Position numbers and translations under genes: made by a program
Part shown: positions 1-51,427 of the stretch, in pieces
Layout of the letters: the number at the start of each line of letters is the position of its first letter
Numbering within the stretch: the first letter of the stretch is position 1
The notes under the pieces: generated by a model
The model's database searches: none
The model's input: the letters and a program-made list of their open reading frames with translations, nothing else
Told to the model about the DNA's origin: nothing
Assembly: GCA_022564295.1 (NCBI GenBank)
Contig: JADFLR010000030.1
Coordinates: forward strand, 1-51,427
Direction: 5' to 3'
Origin: Bacteroidota bacterium
GTDB taxonomy: Bacteria > Bacteroidota > Ignavibacteria > Ignavibacteriales > Ignavibacteriaceae
Length of the DNA stretch: 51,427 bases

Positions 1-945
1 CTAACAGATAATTATTGCTATTCAATTCAAATAAGTCAAATACCATTGGATAACATCGATGAAACATTAAGGATATATAATTCTCTAAAAACAAAATATT
101 TAGTCTATTATTATAAGGGCCCCAATAAAGATAATTATCGAATTAGGGAATCTAAAATTAATGTAGGTTGTTTTGATTCAAAGATAGATGCAGAAAATTA
201 TATTAATATTTTTAAAAATGTTGAAGGCTATGATTCTAAAGTAGATAGCATACGACTATTTATTGATAGCTATAAAAATGAATTTGATATAATTTCTACC
301 CCTAGTACAATTTGGAAAAGAAGAGATAATTATACAGAAGAATTATTTATATTTGATAGTACTACAGTACAAAGATCATCGCTGAGTGTCTACTCAAAAG
401 CTGTGATTTCACCTGATGGTAATAATGTGATTTTTTATTTCAATAAAAAAATAATTAAGCTTAATTTAAAAACATTAGAAACTGCAACATTAGTCGAAAA
501 TTCAGATGTTTATTTTTGGGGATTATTTAACTCACAACCTAGATGGTCATATAATGGTGAATATATTGCTTTTTTAGATATCTATAGATGGGAAACAACA
601 ACAAGTTTATGGATTATAAGACCGGATGGTTCAAACCTTACTTGTTTAATAGACAATACTAACATAAATAGAGAAGCTATAAAATCATTTTTATGGCATC
701 CTACTAAAAATGAAATAATTTTTGTAGAAGGTTTTCCTTATGGTACAATAACCATTGGTGGTAGTTTATATTTTTGTGATTTAGATGGAAATAAACATAT
801 ACTGGCTGAGAAAAATGTTGAACATAGGAAAGAAATACATTTTAAATTTTTTATCGATGATAAATATATCTTTTACAGAGTTGGTCATTGGGATGAAGAA
901 TATATGCAAATATCGTATTCAGACCATACAATTGAAATACCCTGA
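1..945 (+). CDS. SPOR-like / beta-propeller protein, 5' end missing
   Basis: The reading frame is open from base 1, so the gene starts left of the window; the TTG at 46 is only the first start-like codon inside it. The first ~75 visible residues alternate YSIQIS..., a helix, YLVYYY, then INVGCF.S..DAENYI, which looks like a SPOR peptidoglycan-binding repeat (inferred from pattern). The rest (roughly residues 100-299 counted from 46) carries TolB/PD40-like blades: 'VISPDGNNVIFYF', 'PRWSYNGEYIAFL', 'LWIIRPDGSNL', 'FLWHPTKNEIIFV', 'LYFCDLDGNK'. Such combinations are usually envelope-located. The gene is very AT-rich compared with the operon at 1391. The exact function is unknown. Confidence 0.6.
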   Translation, partial: LTDNYCYSIQISQIPLDNIDETLRIYNSLKTKYLVYYYKGPNKDNYRIRESKINVGCFDSKIDAENYINIFKNVEGYDSKVDSIRLFIDSYKNEFDIISTPSTIWKRRDNYTEELFIFDSTTVQRSSLSVYSKAVISPDGNNVIFYFNKKIIKLNLKTLETATLVENSDVYFWGLFNSQPRWSYNGEYIAFLDIYRWETTTSLWIIRPDGSNLTCLIDNTNINREAIKSFLWHPTKNEIIFVEGFPYGTITIGGSLYFCDLDGNKHILAEKNVEHRKEIHFKFFIDDKYIFYRVGHWDEEYMQISYSDHTIEIP

Positions 946-39434: not shown

Positions 39435-40031
39435 ATGAATTTAAATAAAGAAAATAGTGAATTGCCGCAGCCACAAATATTAAAGTTAGACGACGATTTT
39501 TCTCTTGTTAAGAGGTTCATCGATGGAGATGAATCAACTTTCCGGCTGCTTGTACAAAGGCATAAAGAAACAGTAAGAAATATAATATATCTGACTTTGG
39601 GTGATTCCGATGCGGTGGATGACATTGCTCAGGAAGTTTTTATTACTGTTTACAAAAATCTTAAAAACTTTCGTTTCGAATCACTGTTTACAACGTGGCT
39701 ATACAGAATTACGGTAAACAAATGCAAGGATTATCTGCGAAAGAAAAATGTTAGAAAAATTTTCGTACCGATAAAAGAAGCGAGCGGAGAACTTAGAAAC
39801 GATTCAATAACAGAAAAAAACGATATCTCTAAAATAGTAATGAAAGCAATATCAAAATTACCGCAAAAGTTAAAGGTTCCGCTGCTGCTAAAAGATATTG
39901 AAGGATTTAGTTACCAGGAGATTGCAGAAACTATGGAATGTGAAATTGGTACCGTTAAATCAAGAATATTCAGGGCAAGAGAAGGACTTAAAAAAATTCT
40001 TCAGCCAATTGAAGCGGAGTTGATGGAATGA
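39435..40031 (+). CDS. ECF-type RNA polymerase sigma factor
   Basis: The 198-aa protein has sigma-2 ('FRLLVQRHKETVRNIIYLTL', 'VDDIAQEVFITVYKNLKNFR', 'FTTWLYRITVNKCKDYLRKK') and sigma-4 ('LPQKLKVPLLLKDIEGFSYQ', 'EIAETMECEIGTVKSRIFRAR'). It is RpoE/SigW-like. The stop codon overlaps the start of the anti-sigma gene by 4 bases, the usual layout of such a pair. Its own promoter is probably in the 141-bp gap to the STAS gene. Confidence 0.92.
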   Translation: MNLNKENSELPQPQILKLDDDFSLVKRFIDGDESTFRLLVQRHKETVRNIIYLTLGDSDAVDDIAQEVFITVYKNLKNFRFESLFTTWLYRITVNKCKDYLRKKNVRKIFVPIKEASGELRNDSITEKNDISKIVMKAISKLPQKLKVPLLLKDIEGFSYQEIAETMECEIGTVKSRIFRAREGLKKILQPIEAELME

Positions 40032-41581
40032 GCCGCAATTCAAAAGACTTTGAATTACTTTCCGCTTACCTTGACAATGAACTTTCTCATGGGGAAAGAG
40101 TGCAATTGGAGGAAAGCATCAAATCTTCTCTCCAACTTCAAAAGAAACTTGAAGACCTGAAAAAGATTAAACAACTTATATCATCATCGTATAAAAAAAT
40201 TCCTGAATCACCTTATTTTGAAACAAGACTTTTTGCTTCATTAGACTCAAAAAAACCATGGCATAAAAAAGTTTTAAAATGGTCGCCTGCAGTCGGGCTT
40301 GCATTTGCTACAGTTATTATTATGGTTGTATTAAGGACTAATCCGGATATATTTAATAATTTAATCGAGGAGCAAAAATCTAATATAGCCGGATTTTACA
40401 AAGAGAATTTACAACCACTTCTGCTTACCGCCGATTTAAACAATGAAGATATTTTCAATTTTGCTATGTACAAGCAACTACCTCTCGATAAAGATGATAG
40501 AAAAATTCTTCATATCGATTACGATAAAACAGGAAAAGAATTTTTTGAAATTAAAAGTGTCAAACCTATACAAAACGGGAATAATCTTGAAAAGTTTATT
40601 GTTGCATTAAACCTTGATGAAAAGGGGAAAAAACAAATTGATTCTATAATGAATCGGTACGCCGAAGAACTTGAAGCACAAATTCTTATAAACAAAAATA
40701 ATACTGTTGCTATTAATTCTAACCTATGGAATTATCAACGAGCGATTCAAACGGACTTACTGGCTTTTGCAGAAAAATCTAACTGGCAGGAATTTCAGAA
40801 GTTTGTTCCTAACACAGTTTCTTATACTAATAGCCGTGATATTGTTTTAGCAGTGAAGGAAATTAGAAACACACATAACAACAACTATATTTTTCTTACT
40901 CCAGATTCAATTTTTTCAGAATCGATTGAGTTTGATCTCCAAGAATACAAACTTCAGTTATCAGAACTTGAAAATGAATTGAACGAACAGAATCGTAATC
41001 AACGTAAAATTCAATTCCAATTCTCATATGAATCATCGTTGCAAAAATTTGAGGATAAATTGCATAGCAATTTTAAAATTATTTTCGATTCCAATCTTTG
41101 CAGAGTTGAAATATTAGAGTTTGATTTTCCCGATGTGCATTTCCCTGATTTTGATAGTCTCTTTATTGCTTATGATAGTGTTGCTAGTAATTTTAAATTT
41201 CATTCGCAATACATTCCAAGGATTGAATACTTTGATAATAAAATACAATTCCATTTTGATGGGGATTCGTTAAGAACTTATGAGTTTGAGTATTATAAAT
41301 TTGATTTGGATTCTTCGATGGAATTTCAAAGTGAATTGCTTGACTCCCTTAAAAGCAACAGTTGGAATAATTTTTACAACTTTAACGATTCTTTGGTTTT
41401 CAAGGGCATACCGAAATTAGACAGCTACTTTAAATATTATGATGGCGATGTTGAAATAAAATTGGAAATGGAGCATTTAGGAAAAGAGCTTAAAAAATTC
41501 AGAGAAGAAATGAAACAATGGAAAGAAGAATTCAAACGTGAATTCCAATCTCGGGATAAGGATAATAACGGTATAAAATAA
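40028..41581 (+). CDS. membrane anti-sigma factor with large extracytoplasmic domain
   Basis: The 517-aa protein begins with a cytosolic anti-sigma-like helix bundle ('FELLSAYLDNELSHGERVQLEESI') that lacks the zinc-binding His/Cys of ZAS domains. One membrane helix lies at about 86-103. The remaining ~410 residues are highly charged and rich in Asn, Asp, Phe and Glu with predicted helices, and end in a coiled-coil-like 'LGKELKKFREEMKQWKEEFK'. I do not recognise this outer domain; it may sense an envelope signal. It is coupled to the ECF gene by a 4-base overlap. Confidence 0.75.
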   Translation: MSRNSKDFELLSAYLDNELSHGERVQLEESIKSSLQLQKKLEDLKKIKQLISSSYKKIPESPYFETRLFASLDSKKPWHKKVLKWSPAVGLAFATVIIMVVLRTNPDIFNNLIEEQKSNIAGFYKENLQPLLLTADLNNEDIFNFAMYKQLPLDKDDRKILHIDYDKTGKEFFEIKSVKPIQNGNNLEKFIVALNLDEKGKKQIDSIMNRYAEELEAQILINKNNTVAINSNLWNYQRAIQTDLLAFAEKSNWQEFQKFVPNTVSYTNSRDIVLAVKEIRNTHNNNYIFLTPDSIFSESIEFDLQEYKLQLSELENELNEQNRNQRKIQFQFSYESSLQKFEDKLHSNFKIIFDSNLCRVEILEFDFPDVHFPDFDSLFIAYDSVASNFKFHSQYIPRIEYFDNKIQFHFDGDSLRTYEFEYYKFDLDSSMEFQSELLDSLKSNSWNNFYNFNDSLVFKGIPKLDSYFKYYDGDVEIKLEMEHLGKELKKFREEMKQWKEEFKREFQSRDKDNNGIK

Positions 41582-41842
41582 TTTTTTTTGGTTATAATTA
41601 AATCAAAGTACATGTTTTCCCAAAGCACTATTTATCATTCCCATTTCCCTAGGAATAACATTGTCATTACTCCTACCTATTAAGTAAAGTCCATTCTCTT
41701 TCCATCAATTCAACCATCCTGCAATATCCCCGTTCAAATATCTTTTCTTTACATAGGATTAAAAAAAGTGTATTTTCACATATTGCATGGTAGACTCAGT
41801 GTTTTTAAGGTGAAATATTTTAGAATAAATTTTTATGGGTAA

Positions 41843-43978
41843 TTGAACTCGAACAGAAATAATATTATCGACAGTTTTCAATTCAGGTTGTTCTTAATTT
41901 CTGTAGGTGTGTTGCTGGTTTTTAAGTTGTTTGTTTCAAGTTCCGACCAGCTTGTTTATGGGATCATAAGTGATATTCTGCTACTGTTTACAATCACTTT
42001 CCTTTTTATTTCACTGGTTGGATTTTTCGAAGAGAGGAAAATAAACCCTTTATCACTTATAATGAACATAGGAATAATTAGTGCTTTTATTTTCTTCTTA
42101 ATTTTTTTTTACAGCTCTATAATTTCTCTGTTCTTTGAAAATGTGAATGATGATCCAAGTAATCCAGGATTTCTCTCAACAATATTTACGTTTGTTTATT
42201 TTCTTCTCATAATCGGTTTTACAACGTATGTTCTTGTTGCACTGAGGCATCTGTTCTTTTTAGGTCAAAGTACTAATAAGCATATTTATTTTAATACAAT
42301 GATTGTTTTCTTTCTGCTTGCTTCACTATCCATACGATTTACTACATCAGATGAACTTTCATTTATAAGCACTACGTTCTTTATAGTTTCTACACTATTG
42401 ATGTTAATTAATTCTTTAAGAATATCGTGGATAGCATTTTTAACAAAGAAAGAAAAAATCACTTTACTTTTTATGTCTGTTGTAATTACTGTTCTGTTCA
42501 TTGTTAATGCAAGTAATACCGGAAATGATAACTCGATCAATTTGATTTTTCTTTCTTTTTCTAAATCATTTAACGTTTTTGTTTCGTTAATTTTGATTTA
42601 CAGCGCGATTTATTTCAGCATGCTTTTCTTTACAACGTTGTTTCATATTCCAACGGCAGAGGTATTCGATAGGAAAGCTCAGGAAGTTTCATCGCTGCAA
42701 TACTTTAGCAAACTTATTACGCAGGTTTTGGATTTTGATGAGCTTACAGAAACAGTAACTGATATTACAATAAAAGTAAGCAACGCAGATGCATCATGGA
42801 TAATCTGGAAAGAGCATAATGATTTTGTACCTATTGCAAACAATAATATCGGCTTTGTTGATTCTGAATTGATAAACAAATTTATTCTGCGAAAGGTTAG
42901 CTGGGATGGTTTAAGTGAGACAACATTTTTGAAACTTACGGAGTTTGATGAGTTGGTAAAGGTAAGCAAGCTTTATAAAGCCCTTGCTGTCTCACCTTTA
43001 AAAGCGCACGGAAAAGTAAAGGGTTTGCTTGTTGCTGTTCGTAAAGATGAAACAAGATTTAACGAAGAAGATAGAAATGCGATAGCCACTTTTTCTGATT
43101 ATGCTTCGGTTGCAATTGAAAACTCAGGGTTGCTTGAAGAATCGATTGAGAAAGAAAGACTTGAAAAAGAACTTGATGTTGCACGAGAAATTCAGAAAAA
43201 AATATTACCTGAAAAAAATCCTGTTTACGATGGATTAGAAATATCATCTGTCTTCATACCTGCTTTTGAAGTTGGTGGTGATTTTTATGACTTTTTCGAA
43301 ATTTCTAAAACCAAACTTGGTTTTGTAATTGCAGATGTTTCAGGCAAAGGTATTTCAGCAGCTTTTATTATGGCAGAGGTGAAAGGAATTTTTGAATCTC
43401 TTTCAAAAATAATTGAGAGTCCGAAAGAAATACTTATGAAAGCAAATGAGATTTTAAATCGCACATTAGATAATAAAACTTTTGTAAGTGCAGTTTATGG
43501 CTTGATAGATATTGAAAGAGGTCAGATGAAAATTTCGCGCGCGGGTCATTGCCCCGTAATTCTTTTACGAAATGATATTGCACAAAGTGTGAAGCCATCC
43601 GGTATAGGATTAGGTATTAGTGAAGTTGATCATTTCAAAGAACATCTTGATGAAGTAATAATTGAACTTGAAGAAAATGATACTATTGTGCTTTATACGG
43701 ATGGAATAACGGAAGCAAAAAATGAAAATCTTGATGACTTTGGCGAAAAATATTTTACTGAGATTCTGCTTGAGAACAGAAATAATATAGTTGATGAAAT
43801 TTCAAAGAAAGTAATACAGGCAGTTACAATGTTTTCTTATAATCATTCGCAGTATGACGATATTACTTTAGTAATTTTAAAATGGAAACCCCTCCAATCC
43901 GAAGAAGGAAGACGGGACAGGCAAAAAATTAAAACAGACGGAGATAAAAAATGGCAGAATTCAGCACATCAATTATAA
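41843..43978 (+). CDS. membrane-GAF-SpoIIE PP2C phosphatase
   Basis: The 711-aa protein has about eight N-terminal membrane helices (to ~270), a GAF domain (~285-430), a linker helix 'LEKELDVAREIQKKILPE', and a SpoIIE/RsbU-type PP2C domain with 'VGGDFYDFFE', 'ADVSGKGISAAFIMAEVKG', 'YTDGITEAKN' and 'YDDITLVIL'. Such phosphatases dephosphorylate STAS antagonists. The start is TTG at 41843; the nearby ATG at 41834 runs into a stop. The 3' end overlaps the STAS gene by 28 bp. Confidence 0.88.
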   Translation: MNSNRNNIIDSFQFRLFLISVGVLLVFKLFVSSSDQLVYGIISDILLLFTITFLFISLVGFFEERKINPLSLIMNIGIISAFIFFLIFFYSSIISLFFENVNDDPSNPGFLSTIFTFVYFLLIIGFTTYVLVALRHLFFLGQSTNKHIYFNTMIVFFLLASLSIRFTTSDELSFISTTFFIVSTLLMLINSLRISWIAFLTKKEKITLLFMSVVITVLFIVNASNTGNDNSINLIFLSFSKSFNVFVSLILIYSAIYFSMLFFTTLFHIPTAEVFDRKAQEVSSLQYFSKLITQVLDFDELTETVTDITIKVSNADASWIIWKEHNDFVPIANNNIGFVDSELINKFILRKVSWDGLSETTFLKLTEFDELVKVSKLYKALAVSPLKAHGKVKGLLVAVRKDETRFNEEDRNAIATFSDYASVAIENSGLLEESIEKERLEKELDVAREIQKKILPEKNPVYDGLEISSVFIPAFEVGGDFYDFFEISKTKLGFVIADVSGKGISAAFIMAEVKGIFESLSKIIESPKEILMKANEILNRTLDNKTFVSAVYGLIDIERGQMKISRAGHCPVILLRNDIAQSVKPSGIGLGISEVDHFKEHLDEVIIELEENDTIVLYTDGITEAKNENLDDFGEKYFTEILLENRNNIVDEISKKVIQAVTMFSYNHSQYDDITLVILKWKPLQSEEGRRDRQKIKTDGDKKWQNSAHQL

Positions 43979-44319
43979 ATAAAGGTGATGTAAGCGTTAT
44001 AAATTTATCCGGGTATCTAGATGCTCACACTGCCCCAACGCTCGAGGATAATTTCACCGATTTAATTGATCAGAATAAATTTAAAATTGTTGTTAACTTC
44101 AATGATCTTGCTTACATAAGTAGTGCGGGCTTGGGAGTGTTCATGGCTTATATTGAAAAGATAAGAAACAATAACGGCGATATTAAGCTGACCAATATGA
44201 ATGATAAGGTTTTTAACATTTTTGATTTACTCGGCTTCCCTTTGCTTTATGAAATATTTAAAACTGACGAAGAAGCTGTAACTAAATTTAATGAGAGTAG
44301 TGGAGTTGGCAGTAAATAA
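43951..44319 (+). CDS. STAS-domain anti-sigma factor antagonist (RsbV-like)
   Basis: The 122-aa protein has the phosphorylatable loop 'LAYISSAGLGVFMAYIEK' (likely S58). It overlaps the upstream phosphatase gene by 28 bp and the downstream kinase gene by 29 bp, so phosphatase, antagonist and kinase are made together, as expected of a partner-switching unit. Confidence 0.9.
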   Translation: MAEFSTSIINKGDVSVINLSGYLDAHTAPTLEDNFTDLIDQNKFKIVVNFNDLAYISSAGLGVFMAYIEKIRNNNGDIKLTNMNDKVFNIFDLLGFPLLYEIFKTDEEAVTKFNESSGVGSK

Positions 44320-44743
44320 AAAAAATATTAGTGAACTGATTGTTAAAAGCCGAACTGAAAATCTCTCTTTAATAAGAGATTTTGTCAGTAATAAAGCTTC
44401 TGCGGCAGGTTTAAGCAAAGAAGATATTGAGAATATTATGCTTTCGGTTGATGAAGCTTGTACCAACATTATTAAGCATGCTTATAATTCTTATCCCGAT
44501 GGCGAAATAGTAATAAATCTTGAATTTAATTCCGAAAAAATTTCGATAAGCATAATAGATCACGGCAGTACATTCAATCCGGATACTGTTCCGGATCCCG
44601 ATCTTCAAAAATATTACAAAAACGGAAGAGTGGGCGGCTTGGGTATGTATTTAATGAAAACACTTATGGACGATGTTAAATATATTTCTGTTCCGGGTGA
44701 ATACAATAAGGTACTATTATCAAAAAAAATTAATGTTGCCTAA
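44291..44743 (+). CDS. RsbW/SpoIIAB-like anti-sigma serine kinase
   Basis: The 150-aa GHKL ATPase shows N-box 'SVDEACTNIIKHAYNSYPDG', G1 'SIIDHGSTFNPD' and G2 'VGGLGMYLMKTLMDDVKY'. It would phosphorylate the STAS antagonist and bind a target when the antagonist is phosphorylated. No SigB/SigF-type sigma gene is next to it, so the target is open. The ATG lies inside the STAS gene. Confidence 0.9.
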   Translation: MRVVELAVNKKNISELIVKSRTENLSLIRDFVSNKASAAGLSKEDIENIMLSVDEACTNIIKHAYNSYPDGEIVINLEFNSEKISISIIDHGSTFNPDTVPDPDLQKYYKNGRVGGLGMYLMKTLMDDVKYISVPGEYNKVLLSKKINVA

Positions 44744-44748
44744 AATTG

Positions 44749-46428
44749 ATGACTGATATGACTAACTTGAAATTAAAACGCAACCTTACTTCGCTTGTAG
44801 AGTTTAGCAGGGTTATAAACTCAAGCATCGATTTGCAGTTTATTCTTAATAATGTTTTGCTAAGTTGTTTGGGAAAGTTTTTATCAACAAAAGGATTAAT
44901 CGCTTTAAATGAAAATGGTAAAATAGTAATTAAAATTTCTAAAGGATTGAGTGATGGAATTGTTGAGAATTTTCCTGCCTTGCGTGCAAATGAAGATTGT
45001 CTTTCAGATGATCGATTAAATAAATTTATGAAATCAGCAAAGTTAATAGCTGCTGAAGAAATAATCTCATCCGATTTTTGTATCGGTTTGGTTTGCCTCG
45101 GCGAAAAACTAGACAAAACCGATTACACAAAAGACGATCTTGAATTTTTAAAAACAATATTAAACATATCGGCAACTGCAATTCAAAACTCAATAAAGAT
45201 AAATGAACTGCAGGGTGTTAACAGGGAACTTGATTCAAAAATAAACCGGCTTAGTTCGCTGTTCGAACTGAGTAAAGAATTCGGTTTTTTTTCCGAATCG
45301 ACAAAAGTAGCAAAGCTGTTGGTCTTCTCAATCATTGGGCAGTTCCTTGTTTCAAAATATGCTGTAATATCGTTTGATGGAGAAGATATTAAAATACTTG
45401 AATCAAAATATGATGATGAAGATTTGAATAATGGTTTAAAGATATGCGATTGCGGAATGATAACAAGTTCGATAAATAAAACCGATGTATTAAAATCTTA
45501 TCCGGTTCTTTATGAGATGGGTGTTAATCTTATTGTTCCAATGGAAGTGCAAGGCAGGACTAAAGGTTTAATATTGTTGGGCGAAAGAATAACCAAACAA
45601 CCTTATTCGGAAGCTGATATAGAATTCATATATTCTGTTGGAAGTCTTGCAATTATTTCTATTGAGAACAAAAGATTGTTCATTGAAGAATTAGAAAAGC
45701 AAAAGATGGAAGAAGACCTGGAACTGGCAAGAGAAATACAGCAAAATTTATTACCCCAAACTTTACCCCGGTTTAGTAATTTTGATATTGCTGCAGTTAA
45801 TATGTCTTCAAAACAGGTTGGCGGCGATTATTATGATGTAATACCATTTGATGAAAATAATTTTTATATAGCAATCGCAGATGTTTCCGGTAAAGGAACT
45901 CCGGCTTCTTTGCTGATGGCAAACATACAGGCATTCTTACAGGTTATTTGCAGGCATGGATTGGAGATTGAAAAATCAACAGGATTAATTAACGATTTGA
46001 TTTCTGCAAATACAAGCGACGGAAGGTTCATTACGTTTTTCTGGGCTCTTATTAATAACGAAGAAAAAAAGATGACTTATGTTAATGCCGGTCATAATCA
46101 TCCTTTGTTCATTAGAGATGGTGAAATAAGAAAACTTCATAAAGGCGGAATGATACTTGGTGTGATGGAAACAACAATTCCTTATGATTCGGAAACGATT
46201 AACTTGCAAAAGAATGATGTGATTGTATTATTTACAGATGGAATATCCGAAGCAATGAACAAGGAATCGGAAGAATTTTCTGATGAAAGATTGGAAGAAA
46301 GTAGTGTTAAGCTATCATCACTTTCAGCAAAAGAAATTTTAGATGGAATAAAGAATGAAGTTACTGATTTTACAAAAGGTGCATCACAATCGGATGATAT
46401 TACCATGGTTGTCATAAAAGTAAAGTAA
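44749..46428 (+). CDS. tandem-GAF SpoIIE PP2C phosphatase
   Basis: The 559-aa soluble protein has two GAF-like domains (about 10-155 and 165-310). The helix 'EEDLELAREIQQNLLPQTLP' follows, then a PP2C domain with 'VGGDYYDVIPFDE', 'ADVSGKGTPASLLMA', 'FTDGISEAMNKE' and 'SDDITMVVI'. No membrane segment is present, so it should sense a cytosolic signal. I use ATG 44749 rather than the TTG one codon earlier. It starts 5 bp after the kinase gene and ends 6 bp before the next phosphatase. Confidence 0.9.
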   Translation: MTDMTNLKLKRNLTSLVEFSRVINSSIDLQFILNNVLLSCLGKFLSTKGLIALNENGKIVIKISKGLSDGIVENFPALRANEDCLSDDRLNKFMKSAKLIAAEEIISSDFCIGLVCLGEKLDKTDYTKDDLEFLKTILNISATAIQNSIKINELQGVNRELDSKINRLSSLFELSKEFGFFSESTKVAKLLVFSIIGQFLVSKYAVISFDGEDIKILESKYDDEDLNNGLKICDCGMITSSINKTDVLKSYPVLYEMGVNLIVPMEVQGRTKGLILLGERITKQPYSEADIEFIYSVGSLAIISIENKRLFIEELEKQKMEEDLELAREIQQNLLPQTLPRFSNFDIAAVNMSSKQVGGDYYDVIPFDENNFYIAIADVSGKGTPASLLMANIQAFLQVICRHGLEIEKSTGLINDLISANTSDGRFITFFWALINNEEKKMTYVNAGHNHPLFIRDGEIRKLHKGGMILGVMETTIPYDSETINLQKNDVIVLFTDGISEAMNKESEEFSDERLEESSVKLSSLSAKEILDGIKNEVTDFTKGASQSDDITMVVIKVK

Positions 46429-46434
46429 ATTGAA

Positions 46435-48993
46435 ATGAACAGTATCAAAGCAACATATCTTAAATGGAAATCCAAATTAATAGCCGGATTTTCCATCGCA
46501 TTAATTGCAGTGGCTCTACTTAACATCTACTATGTTCTTGAAGTAAGGGTTACAAGTAACGATGAATGTTTGTGGATACCAAAAAAAATAAATAAAGACA
46601 GCACGGCAATATTTTTTGATTTGGTGAAAGTAGAAGGAGTTAGCTGGAATGCAGGTATAAGGAACGGCTATCAGTTATTAATGATAAATGGAGAATTTTT
46701 AAACTATACATTACAGGCTCAAGATATACTGAACAGAGTAAAGGGTGGGGAATATGCGGATTATCTTGTTAAAAAACCGGATGGGGAAATTGTAACCACA
46801 AAAGTTTATATTAAAAAACTTATTCAATACGGTAGTCTTGCAAATTCTTTAAGCGCATTATTCTGGATGCTGATTGGATTTATAGTTTTAACAGCTAAAC
46901 CCGAAGGCAGGACTCATAAACTGTTTTATGCATTGGGTGTCTTTGCCGTGTTTACATCCATGGCTGTATTGATGCAATTGGATTATAGGATTATTGATCA
47001 TGTAAAAGAACAACCGGTTTTTTCTTTTCTCATTTCCTCCATTTGGGTTATTGGAATCAGTTTTGTTGGTCCTACTTTATTAAACTTTTTCTGGAATTTT
47101 CCGCGCCCATTTAAATTTGCTGAAAAACTCTGGGTTAGACGAACGCTTTTTATAGTGCCTGCAATATGTTCATTATTGATTATCACCATGCTGGTTTTAA
47201 TTTTTGGATATTACATACTTCCGATGCGCAATTTTTATCTCTTTATAGAATGGTATGGTAATTTTATAATGGCTGTTAACGCGGTTGCACTTATCTCTTT
47301 AATTGTGCAGTACAGAAGAATAAAAAACAAAGAACAAAGGAAACCAATCTTCCTAATAATCGTCGCATTTATTTTTGGTATTGCTGTTGCAGTTTATGCA
47401 AGTAAAATTGCCCCGGCTATAACCGATACTATTTTTAACTCTCCTGAATACTATGCTCCAATTGTACTTGTTGCATTAGTACCGTTAATATTTGGCTATG
47501 CTATCTTTAGATATCAGTTAATGGATGTAAGTGTTGTAATAAGAAATACGATCATGTACGGTGCAGCTACTTTAACTCTGGCAGCCATTTACTTTTTTGT
47601 TGTTTACGTTGCCGGTCAGGGAATAAGTTCGGCATTAGGGGTGGAAAACCAGGGAATTATTGCCGGAATATTTTTTATAATATTTGCTATAGTTTTTCAA
47701 TCAACAAAAAACAGATTTCAGGATTTTCTTACCAAAAGATTTTACCCGGAACAGTTTGCGCATCAGCGTGTGCTTATGGAATTGAGTAATGAATTGGCTA
47801 CAGTGGTAGGATTAGATAATATCCTGGAGTTGATGAAAAAAACATTTGTTGATGCACTCAATATAAATAAGTTTGGAATCCTGATAAGAGATAAGGACAA
47901 TAATCTAAGTTTAACTAAGTGTGTTGGCATAAATGAAGAATGTATTATTACCAGTTCAAACATTGCACATTTCTTAAAAGAAAGAACTTTAATTACAAAA
48001 AATCCTGCAATCGAACAAGCTGATTTCAAAAGTGTTTTCCCGGATATGGCAGATAAGCTTATCGAAGAAGAAATATACACCGTAATCCCTATGATAATTA
48101 ATAACAAGATTGTTGGATTGCTGCTCTTCGGATTGAAATATTCAGGTTCCCACTTTGCTGGTAAAGATATTGAACTGTTGTGGGCTGCTGCAAATCAGGC
48201 AGCAGTTTCAATTGAGAACGCACGCTTGTACGATACCGAAGCACAGAAACTGAAAATTGAACAGGACCTTGATACTGCAAGGAAAATACAGGAGAGCTTA
48301 TTACCCGCGTGTATTCCCCAAATAAGAAATCTTGATATATGCGGTGAAATGATCCCTGCAATGCAGGTCGGCGGCGATTACTATGATCTTCTCCCGGTAA
48401 ATGGTTCAGATTCAAAACTGTTTGTTATAATAGGCGATGTTTCGGGTAAAGGACTTGCAGCTTCACTTTATATGACAAAACTCCAGACTATGGTACAGTT
48501 CGCATGTACAGCGGATTCAAGCCCGAAAGAAATATTGGTAGAAATAAACAAAAGGATTTACAGTGAAATAGAACGTAATTGGTTTATAACAATGTCCATT
48601 GCTTATTTCGATCTTGAAAAGAAAACAGTTAAGTTTTGCCGTGCAGGGCATATGCCTTTGCTAACTGCAGAAAACGGTACTGTACAATCCCACCGTACGC
48701 AGGGGATAGGTGTTGGATTGGAAAAAGGTGAAATATTTGAAGAATCTCTTATTGAACAGGAATTAAGTCTGAAGCCGGGACAAATCTATGCTTTCTTTAC
48801 GGATGGGATTACGGAAGCAATGAACGAGCAGCACGATTTATTTGGTGAAGATAATTTATCTTCAATTTTAAAAGATAAATCAACCAGCCGGTCCAACGAT
48901 ATTATGCAGGAGATATGGAACAAGATAAATTCCTTCCGCGGCTCCGCCGAAGTTAATGATGATATGACAATGGTTATCATTAAGGTGAATTGA
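46435..48993 (+). CDS. PDZ-membrane-GAF-SpoIIE PP2C phosphatase
   Basis: The 852-aa protein begins with a membrane helix (about 14-36). A PDZ-like segment follows ('VEGVSWNAGIRNGYQLLMIN', about 62-125), then eight more membrane helices (to ~425), a GAF domain (~440-600), the linker 'EQDLDTARKIQESLLPA', and a PP2C domain with 'VGGDYYDLLPVNG', 'GDVSGKGLAASLYMTKLQTM', 'FTDGITEAMNEQ' and 'NDDMTMVII'. The N-terminal PDZ would lie outside the inner membrane and could read envelope stress. It is the last gene of the partner-switching cluster and is followed by a terminator. Confidence 0.88.
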   Translation: MNSIKATYLKWKSKLIAGFSIALIAVALLNIYYVLEVRVTSNDECLWIPKKINKDSTAIFFDLVKVEGVSWNAGIRNGYQLLMINGEFLNYTLQAQDILNRVKGGEYADYLVKKPDGEIVTTKVYIKKLIQYGSLANSLSALFWMLIGFIVLTAKPEGRTHKLFYALGVFAVFTSMAVLMQLDYRIIDHVKEQPVFSFLISSIWVIGISFVGPTLLNFFWNFPRPFKFAEKLWVRRTLFIVPAICSLLIITMLVLIFGYYILPMRNFYLFIEWYGNFIMAVNAVALISLIVQYRRIKNKEQRKPIFLIIVAFIFGIAVAVYASKIAPAITDTIFNSPEYYAPIVLVALVPLIFGYAIFRYQLMDVSVVIRNTIMYGAATLTLAAIYFFVVYVAGQGISSALGVENQGIIAGIFFIIFAIVFQSTKNRFQDFLTKRFYPEQFAHQRVLMELSNELATVVGLDNILELMKKTFVDALNINKFGILIRDKDNNLSLTKCVGINEECIITSSNIAHFLKERTLITKNPAIEQADFKSVFPDMADKLIEEEIYTVIPMIINNKIVGLLLFGLKYSGSHFAGKDIELLWAAANQAAVSIENARLYDTEAQKLKIEQDLDTARKIQESLLPACIPQIRNLDICGEMIPAMQVGGDYYDLLPVNGSDSKLFVIIGDVSGKGLAASLYMTKLQTMVQFACTADSSPKEILVEINKRIYSEIERNWFITMSIAYFDLEKKTVKFCRAGHMPLLTAENGTVQSHRTQGIGVGLEKGEIFEESLIEQELSLKPGQIYAFFTDGITEAMNEQHDLFGEDNLSSILKDKSTSRSNDIMQEIWNKINSFRGSAEVNDDMTMVIIKVN

Positions 48994-49231
48994 TAATAAA
49001 ACCCTTACTGAATTGCTTTTCCCAACCCCTGCTTAATAACATAGGCGGGTTTTTTTATTTGTTGTATAACTCCAAGAATCGTTTAAATATTCAGATAAAA
49101 TAGTTAAGTTAATCTTAATAAATATTTCTATGCTAAAATTCATTCGACTTTCTCCACAATTCCTTTATTAGTATATATATAATGATCCTTCTCTTGAAAC
49201 AGATTATTTATAAATCTTTTTAATAATCTTC
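48994..49231. other. bacterial-archaeal junction region
   Basis: This 238-bp gap separates the last bacterial gene from the first archaeal one. It starts with a bacterial-type terminator and shows no gene. On the minus strand TTTATAAA at about 49208-49216, just after the archaeal nusA stop, resembles an archaeal TATA box. The rps12 gene that usually follows archaeal nusA is absent. A sequence join probably lies here. Confidence 0.5.
49024..49060 (+). terminator. terminator-like hairpin after the phosphatase cluster
   Basis: AACCC (49024-49028) pairs with GGGTT (49047-49051), with partial pairing inside (CT/AG with a bulge), followed by a T-rich tail at 49050-49060. Confidence 0.5.
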
Positions 49232-49645
49232 TTAAACTATCTTCAGATCTTTACCGAAGTTATCCTCGACAATCTTGCTTAACTCTAACAAACGTCGCCT
49301 ATTCCTTCCAATCAAGGCCGCCTTGCTCCTAATTCCTGCTGTAAGAATAAAAATATCATTTTTCAACTCAAGAGAAATAAAAGTAACGGGGCTGACAACA
49401 TCTCCAACAAAGCGTGTTGCATCTTCAATACCTAAAGACTCTTTGACAATCCTCACCTTCTTGCCAAGCTTTTCTTGAATGTATTTTATATTTTTTCCAG
49501 AAGGGCCAATAGCCCTAGACATATTTTTGTCCGAAACCGAAAAAATGATTACATTATTATAAACAAAACAGTTCCTAGTGCTAACACCACTTACTTTATG
49601 TAAAAGGTTAATATATCTCATAGTCTGCATGTTTATCGTTGCCAT
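49232..49645 (-). CDS. nusA: archaeal NusA-like KH-domain protein
   Basis: This 137-aa protein is the short archaeal form of the transcription factor NusA, which has only KH domains and none of the S1 and N-terminal parts of bacterial NusA. It shows 'TMRYINLLHKVSGVSTRNCFV', 'SRAIGPSGKNIKYIQEKLGK' (KH GxxG) and 'FILTAGIRSKAALIGRNRRR'. It lies 14 bp after L30e with AGGGGT as ribosome binding site. The order rpoA-L30e-nusA is that of archaeal genomes. Confidence 0.88.
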   Translation of the reverse strand: MATINMQTMRYINLLHKVSGVSTRNCFVYNNVIIFSVSDKNMSRAIGPSGKNIKYIQEKLGKKVRIVKESLGIEDATRFVGDVVSPVTFISLELKNDIFILTAGIRSKAALIGRNRRRLLELSKIVEDNFGKDLKIV

Positions 49646-49659
49646 TATCTGTTACCCCT

Positions 49660-49899
49660 TTACTTTTTTAAACCAAAAACTTCACATTCAAACTCGAGTT
49701 CAAGTTTATTAGATAAATCCTGCTTACCAAACTCTAACTCCTCGATTGCGATCTTATTCGTATCTAATAGTTCTCGAATTTCCATTCTACAGTCTGAAGG
49801 GAGGATTACTTTTTTTAAATTTTTTGCATTTTTTAGAGTTTGCTTCACCCCAAAGAAAACCTTTCCATTCTCGATATTCTTTTTTAACTCATGTACCAT
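49660..49899 (-). CDS. rpl30e: archaeal ribosomal protein L30e
   Basis: The 79-aa protein is shorter than usual L30e (~100 aa). It has 'NGKVFFGVKQTLKNAKNLKK' (the 'G..G...T.....K' RNA-binding start) and 'VILPSDCRMEIRELLD'. L30e belongs to the archaeal/eukaryotic large subunit and does not exist in bacteria. It sits between rpoA'' and nusA, the usual archaeal place. Confidence 0.8.
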   Translation of the reverse strand: MVHELKKNIENGKVFFGVKQTLKNAKNLKKVILPSDCRMEIRELLDTNKIAIEELEFGKQDLSNKLELEFECEVFGLKK

Positions 49900-49933
49900 C
49901 TTTTTTATTTAACAAAATCATTCCACGTAGGAA

Positions 49934-49950
49934 CTATTTAAATATATATC
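49934..49950 (-). promoter_or_regulatory. archaeal TATA-box-like element
   Basis: Minus strand GATATATATTTAAATAG contains TTTAAATA about 40 bp upstream of the L30e start codon, the distance expected for an archaeal TATA box plus a short leader. It lies in the 59-bp gap after the rpoA stop. Confidence 0.4.
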
Positions 49951-49958
49951 TAATGAAT

Positions 49959-51427
49959 TCACTTCTTCTTACGCTTGCCTTCATCATCTTCCTCTCTAAC
50001 AAGCCTGCCAGTAACATTCACCAACAAACCCGGAAGACCGGTACCAATAGGGACTGGTTGGTTAAGCATGATGTTTTCAATTACGCTTTCTAGATCATCA
50101 CGTTTACCTTGTATTGTGGCATTAACAAACTGCTTGTCAGGAGTCTCAAAAGCAGCCCTAGCGAAAATACTCGACTTATGGGATATAATTCCCATCCTAG
50201 TTACTCCACGAACCAGTCCAGATGAGGTCATTGCATCTGCAACGAGATCAAGATGTCTATGGTTAATGTCAAGACCTTGGCTCTCAAGAACTTTATTAAC
50301 CTCATCGACAACCGCCTGCCTTGCAGCATCGATACCAATGACATCTGCTATTTCATGTATGTTGTTTGTAAAGACTTTATTCTTATTAACTCCCTTCATC
50401 TCAAGAACTTCTTTTAGATTGCTACCTGCTGTCAAGATTACAAAATCTCTTCCTCTATGTGCCACAACAACATGAGAGATATTCTTAACACCAGAGATCA
50501 TGGTTTTTCTTAGCTTTTCTTTAAGCTTATACATTGCTTTGAAGTCCAAGTCTGGTGTTGAAAGTATGATCTTAGTCTCTTTATTCTTAACATCAAAACC
50601 CTTTTCTATCAACCTGTCTGCTATCTTTTGAGAACCTACATGAACAGCCCTTAAGGATTTGACGTCTAGCTCTATTTCCGTTTTCTTTCTTCCAAAGTCA
50701 AGTCTGATTTCTGAGGAAATTTCTTCTAATGTAACTTCTTTAATTTTCTCCGCAAGAACTCTTGCTCCTTTTTCATTATTATTATCTTTATCAAGATATA
50801 TCTCCATAGTAGGAGTCGAAGGCTGTTTTCTTGCATCGAAGATTTCAATTAACCTAGGTAACCCTTGTGTGACTTGCATTTCTGCAACACCAGCGGAGTG
50901 GAAAACGTTCAAAACCATCTGGGTTGACGCCTCTCCAAAACTCTGGGCAGTTATAACCCCCACGGCTTCTCCAGGAGGCACATTCATACCAATATGAAGG
51001 CCTGCAACGTCAAAACCATCCCCACCATAAGAGAACTGAATTATATTCTCTGAGGCATCTCTTACAGTGAAGTCATACTCTAACTTCAAATCTTGCAAAG
51101 CGCTCACAAGTCTTCTATACAAGTAACCAGACTTTGGCGTTCTCAACGCAGTATCCATCAACCCATCTCTTCCTGTAATAGAATTGAAGAAAAACTCATG
51201 AGGCTTAAGACCATCGAAGAATGAACTTTTAATGAACCCATGGGCATTTGCTCCCATATCTCCTTTCTTGAATTGAGATATAGTGCGTTCATTATAACCA
51301 AAGTTAATGCGCTGATTCCATAAAGATTGCTGACCAACAAAACATCCAATCTGAGTGATATTTAGAGCACTACCCCCACCGCCAGCAGAGATCATCTTGC
51401 TCACATTACCATCCTTTGGCAAATATT
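49959..51427 (-). CDS. rpoA2: archaeal RNA polymerase, A' C-terminal part fused to A'', 5' end missing
   Basis: The ~489 visible residues run off the right edge. The first ~125 are the end of subunit A': 'ALNITQIGCFVGQQSLWNQR', 'ERTISQFKKGDMGANAHGF', the bridge-helix region 'TGRDGLMDTALRTPKSGYLY'. Then A'' follows in one frame with the trigger-loop region 'PPGEAVGVITAQSFGEASTQ', 'VFHSAGVAEMQVTQGLPRL', 'FDARKQPSTPTMEIYL' and the C-terminal 'DLVADAMTSSGLVRGVTRMG' and 'SSIFARAAFETPDKQF'. In most archaea A' and A'' are separate genes; here they are joined and the linking part is very short. The TTG at 51422 is not the true start. Confidence 0.88.
   Translation of the reverse strand, partial: YLPKDGNVSKMISAGGGGSALNITQIGCFVGQQSLWNQRINFGYNERTISQFKKGDMGANAHGFIKSSFFDGLKPHEFFFNSITGRDGLMDTALRTPKSGYLYRRLVSALQDLKLEYDFTVRDASENIIQFSYGGDGFDVAGLHIGMNVPPGEAVGVITAQSFGEASTQMVLNVFHSAGVAEMQVTQGLPRLIEIFDARKQPSTPTMEIYLDKDNNNEKGARVLAEKIKEVTLEEISSEIRLDFGRKKTEIELDVKSLRAVHVGSQKIADRLIEKGFDVKNKETKIILSTPDLDFKAMYKLKEKLRKTMISGVKNISHVVVAHRGRDFVILTAGSNLKEVLEMKGVNKNKVFTNNIHEIADVIGIDAARQAVVDEVNKVLESQGLDINHRHLDLVADAMTSSGLVRGVTRMGIISHKSSIFARAAFETPDKQFVNATIQGKRDDLESVIENIMLNQPVPIGTGLPGLLVNVTGRLVREEDDEGKRKKK

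Follow-up and report, generated by a model that had tools for sequence, protein, structure and literature searches.

An archaeal rpoA-L30e-nusA block at the end of a bacterial contig, very probably attached by a false join at a repeat

The window analysed here, a stretch of 51,427 bp, is the entire contig C28 of a bacterial genome of 4.07 Mb in 59 contigs, which is rated 100% complete with 0.24% contamination. Exact overlaps with another contig end were found at 20 of the 110 readable contig ends of this genome (eight ends, from four contigs, read as N and were left out), each of them 127 bp long, and such uniformity would point to a de Bruijn assembler run at k = 127. As expected for an assembly of this kind, the left end of the window (1-127) shares 127 bp exactly with contig C56 of the same genome. 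The window contains no N, at the junction described below or elsewhere.

The right end of the window carries, on the minus strand between 49,232 and 51,425, the 3′ part of an archaeal rpoA, an L30e-like gene and an archaeal nusA, all with intact reading frames. These three genes had been recognized from the sequence in an earlier note, and Pfam and NCBIfam profiles together with Pacearchaeota relatives bear this out. The rpoA fragment (49,959-51,425, 488 codons), assigned by profiles, relatives and a tree, matches Pfam RNA_pol_Rpb1_5 (4e-76) and Rpb1_4 (6e-13), as well as NCBIfam rpoA2 (1e-112) and the C-terminal part of rpoA1, the last two scoring below cut-offs set for whole proteins, as the contig end truncates the gene. 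With the rpoA1 C-terminus and rpoA2 both matched, a single uninterrupted frame covers the last part of A′ and the complete A″. Hence, the gene is not a separate A″, as first described, but a fused A′-A″ gene of which the contig holds the 3′ part. The L30e-like ribosomal protein gene (49,660-49,899) is weak by profile (NCBIfam L30e 5e-5, below cut-off; Pfam E value 0.098, with no Pfam match at the 0.001 threshold) and is assigned by its position and by 47-54% protein identity to the gene that occupies the equivalent position in four Pacearchaeota loci (L003-L006). L30e matches were found in 6 of the 19 related loci searched and in none of the others. The nusA gene (49,232-49,645), with its KH domains, is assigned by profiles and relatives (KH_5 1e-6; TIGR01952 nusA_arch 4e-17, 62.9 bits, below the cut-off of 74.35). 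It is followed on the same strand by a probable archaeal spacer of 111 bp (49,121-49,231), whose TATA-like box (49,205-49,214) resembles the one after nusA in L006; an archaeal origin is presumed for 49,121-49,204, to which no match was found in the relatives.

The 17 related loci used for comparison (L002-L018) fall in the DPANN range. The rpoA fragment is nearest to L002, with 77% amino-acid identity over 478 residues, and is 70-76% identical to L003-L009; these nearest relatives are mostly labelled Pacearchaeota. In the tree, it pairs with L002 with moderate support (84/95) inside a group of nine rows, the other eight comprising seven labelled Pacearchaeota and one, L008, labelled only “uncultured archaeon”. 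Fifteen of the 17 related loci (L002-L016) encode the fused A′-A″ protein in a single ORF of 1,107-1,165 codons, while rpoA is split in L017, and in L018 an intein with a LAGLIDADG domain lies within the A″ ORF. A literature search on fused polymerase subunits in DPANN returned nothing direct; a section of one report (PMC13257274) gives a single accession for a Woesearchaeota Rpo1. L012 is titled Nitrososphaerales, yet its rpoA falls among the DPANN rows of this tree, which was built without other archaea, possibly as a result of misbinning. The lack of rps12 beside nusA had been taken as a sign of a false join, an argument which loses its force here since rps12 follows nusA in only 6 of 15 related loci (L006, L010, L011, L012, L015 and L017) and not in the other nine, as read by eye from the flanks. 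A search of 181 genomes for the donor archaeon found no near-identical genome, the best match reaching 73% DNA identity over 1.4 kb.

A search of the genome for the N-terminal polymerase domain of rpoA returned as its sole match the bacterial RpoC on C44, encoded there by an open frame of 1,430 codons; the remainder of the archaeal gene is therefore absent from this genome. This bears on the suggestion that the bacterium uses the archaeal RNA polymerase A′-A″, L30e and NusA. The open reading frames are intact, which would fit such use, but the fused gene is represented by its last 488 codons only, its N-terminal archaeal part was not found in the genome and the bacterium has its own RpoC. Archaeal A″ is not known to be usable by a bacterial polymerase. 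Functional transfer can be regarded as vanishingly improbable. The missing overlap partner at the archaeal end of the contig was also considered as an argument, the last 200 bases of C28 having no match in the rest of the genome. However, it was dropped, as 90 of the 110 readable ends are likewise without an overlap.

To the left of the block, the profile scan covered eight window proteins, part of the genes of the window, and placed LepA, SurE, bacterial signal peptidase I, AroB, PurA and the type IX secretion protein PorZ above NCBIfam cut-offs. Across 40,028-48,993, five genes keep the order seen in the same-genus genome G002. The last of them closes a bacterial signalling cluster and encodes a SpoIIE-type phosphatase (46,435-48,993, plus strand; SpoIIE 3e-40), which was matched in 41 of 41 genomes (the own genome and 40 relatives), with 71% identity in the same-genus genomes G002 and G004. 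A contig that is truly archaeal, or co-binned with archaeal sequence, and whose bacterial part was misbinned, would account for archaeal genes at one end, but it is extremely unlikely given the collinearity with G002, the bacterial profiles of LepA, SurE, AroB and PorZ and the overlap of the left end with C56 of the same genome.

Bacterial sequence extends beyond the SpoIIE-type gene. The earlier note had set the boundary at 48,993, and everything tested on its left is indeed bacterial; on its right, the segment 48,994-49,120 (plus strand) corresponds to a bacterial terminator and the leader of a repeated 54-codon gene, by identity to contig C3 of G002 (G002:C3) and to contig C42 of the own genome, so that archaeal sequence begins only at about 49,121. 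G002:C3 is 92% identical to 48,716-49,123 and then runs on into the 54-codon gene. C42 likewise continues into this gene; its identity to the window is 87% over the 106 columns up to 49,123, with an exact run of 35 bases shared with C28 (49,086-49,120). Compared base by base, the window departs from both at 49,121, two chance matches making 49,121-49,123 ambiguous, which puts the breakpoint between bacterial left and archaeal right at 49,120/49,121. The SpoIIE gene of G002:C3 is a 91-codon fragment at the contig edge with 98% protein identity, whereas the full G002 orthologue on C98 shows 71%; hence G002:C3 may come from another strain or copy. The evidence from C42 is independent of this caveat. 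The contig G002:C3 also carries two tyrosine recombinase genes. The terminator-like sequence at 49,026-49,055 has near copies in G002:C3 and, in the own genome, four matches at up to three mismatches, itself counted, while the reversed control gave none.

The 54-codon gene is whole on C42 and reaches the ends of C53 and C58. The start of C42, the end of C53 and the start of C58 all lie in this gene and share an identical stretch of 127 bp. From the start of the exact run between C28 and C42 to the end of C42, the repeat measures 284 bp. It is entered by two sequences (C28 and C42) and left by two (C53 and C58). The gene (L044:9745-9909; L062:38-199, on C42) encodes a basic protein, is repeated in the genome and breaks its assembly; a profile search of the protein found no family match.

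The sequence expected to the right of the SpoIIE-type gene can be read from related genomes. Thirteen kin genomes were selected from the 40 relatives, seven at first and six more thereafter, with longer stretches used for some of the first seven in the second round. A first count, with secF-like genes in three of the seven, was superseded by these longer stretches and additional genomes. In 7 of the 13 (G002, G006, G009, G016, G018, G023 and G024, of which G006 and G023 are single-contig genomes), secF follows the SpoIIE gene in convergent orientation, at less than 5 kb in five of them and at about 16 kb in G006 and about 22 kb in G016. No secF was found 3′ of SpoIIE in the remaining six, within 3 kb in G004 and within about 9-11 kb in G008, G013, G014, G020 and G026. 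The interval between the SpoIIE cluster and secF-secD in L045, L047 and L048 (from G004, G006 and G016) holds genes which, by eye, resemble type I restriction-modification genes. The own secF-secD genes, identified by profile, are found on C53, 1.5 kb short of its end and oriented as the order SpoIIE-secF predicts. The gene order of the kin, taken together with this position, gives the expected order C28, repeat, C53, and the repeat followed by C53 is very probably the true right neighbour of C28, the archaeal 2.3 kb taking the place of the rest of the repeat. Two other candidates were considered: C58 ends in the same 127 bp, but synteny favours C53, and C22 matches the post-repeat part of G002:C3 at 83%, but the match is internal to C22, which indicates that G002:C3 and this genome have different gene orders beyond the repeat.

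These observations argue for an assembly origin of the block, and C28 is in all likelihood a metagenome-assembly chimera with a false join at 49,120/49,121. Its two parts differ in organismal origin, Pacearchaeota-like on the right and bacterial on the left, the breakpoint falls at a repeat where C42, C53 and C58 also end, and the expected neighbour lies elsewhere in the assembly, near the end of C53. The proposal of a false join within the 238-bp gap between the bacterial and archaeal genes, made in the earlier note, fits these results: bacterial homology ends in the repeat at 49,120, the expected secF-secD neighbour is on another contig ending in that repeat, and the archaeal gene was found in no other genome of the family and phylum sets. 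The falseness of the join itself is strongly suggested by comparison of sequences. The first 49,120 bases would come from the bacterium and the last 2.3 kb from an uncultured Pacearchaeota-like (DPANN) archaeon, presumably from the same sample. The true bacterial path would run from the SpoIIE gene through the repeated 54-codon gene into the secF-secD block, the assembler having left the repeat unresolved and, on C28, gone on into archaeal sequence. Assemblers can make false joins via a chimeric read, at small k or in gap closing. As an identical run of 35 bases is too short to connect paths at k = 127, one of these three routes is assumed here.

Several points weigh against a chimera. The window lacks N, the shared run is too short for k = 127, the archaeal frames are intact, secF was not found in 6 of the 13 kin stretches and G002:C3 may represent another strain or copy. 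In addition, misassemblies are described as relatively rare compared to mis-binning in the sections consulted of the GUNC paper (PMC8201837). The composition of the block speaks for a chimera but leaves some room. By tetranucleotides, the block is archaeal-like when set against bacterial and archaeal control windows: a discriminant with 96% cross-validated accuracy places it with archaea, at a score of 1.56 (36 bacterial windows, -2.49 to 1.38; 36 archaeal windows, -0.80 to 2.76). However, one bacterial control window, at 1.38, scores almost as archaeal as the block, and the distance of the block to the bacterial centre (5.84) exceeds the 95th percentile of the bacterial windows (5.72) but lies within their range (maximum 6.81).

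The same features could be read as a genuine event, in which part of a DPANN chromosome was recently inserted beside the repeated gene and is carried as a passenger without a role in transcription. A junction without N and intact archaeal frames would fit such an event, a site next to a repeated gene is conceivable, and extra genes do lie between SpoIIE and secF in some of the kin. If true, a block of informational genes would have passed between domains very recently and would be seen here before its decay. Against it stand a breakpoint inside a repeat where three other contigs of the assembly also end, and an rpoA cut by the contig end whose other part is absent from the genome. The contig ends inside the archaeal gene, and bacterial sequence is therefore seen on one side of the block only. 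The same arrangement in an independent genome was regarded in the earlier note as an argument for a real junction. Queried with the archaeal rpoA fragment, only the own genome matched among the 80 of the family set (E values up to 1e-40) and among the 395 of a phylum sample (E values up to 1e-50), two overlapping sets with 79 and 394 other genomes, respectively. Such an insertion is thus very unlikely. The archaeal-type ribosomal family S3Ae, tested as a single marker, gave no match in the genome; of the 14 controls, the 4 archaea were positive.

With a chimera as the preferred reading, the block has no biological significance as a gene transfer and is not evidence of one. C28 should be cut at 49,120, lest the archaeal genes be counted as a bacterial gain. 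More generally, the interdomain transfer of an informational gene can be mimicked where a repeat, here of about 284 bp, coincides with a second organism in the sample, even in a genome with completeness and contamination ratings as favourable as these (100% and 0.24%).

Two known systems offer a comparison. The rpoA(A′-A″)-L30e-nusA block of Pacearchaeota (L003-L006) has the same gene order and the same fused A′-A″ gene, with protein identities of 74-76% for rpoA, 57-62% for nusA and, as given above, 47-54% for L30e. Unlike in these loci, the block is represented here by its 3′ end alone, attached to bacterial DNA. In L002, which has the nearest rpoA, no L30e match was found between rpoA and nusA. 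The chimeric contigs of metagenome-assembled genomes described in the sections consulted of the GUNC paper (PMC8201837) are likewise composed of pieces from two organisms, which meet at a repeat belonging to one of the two. Unlike the chimeras described there, the breakpoint of C28 is placed to within a few bases, and its expected true neighbour, the repeat followed by the secF-secD end of C53, can be named from sequence alone.
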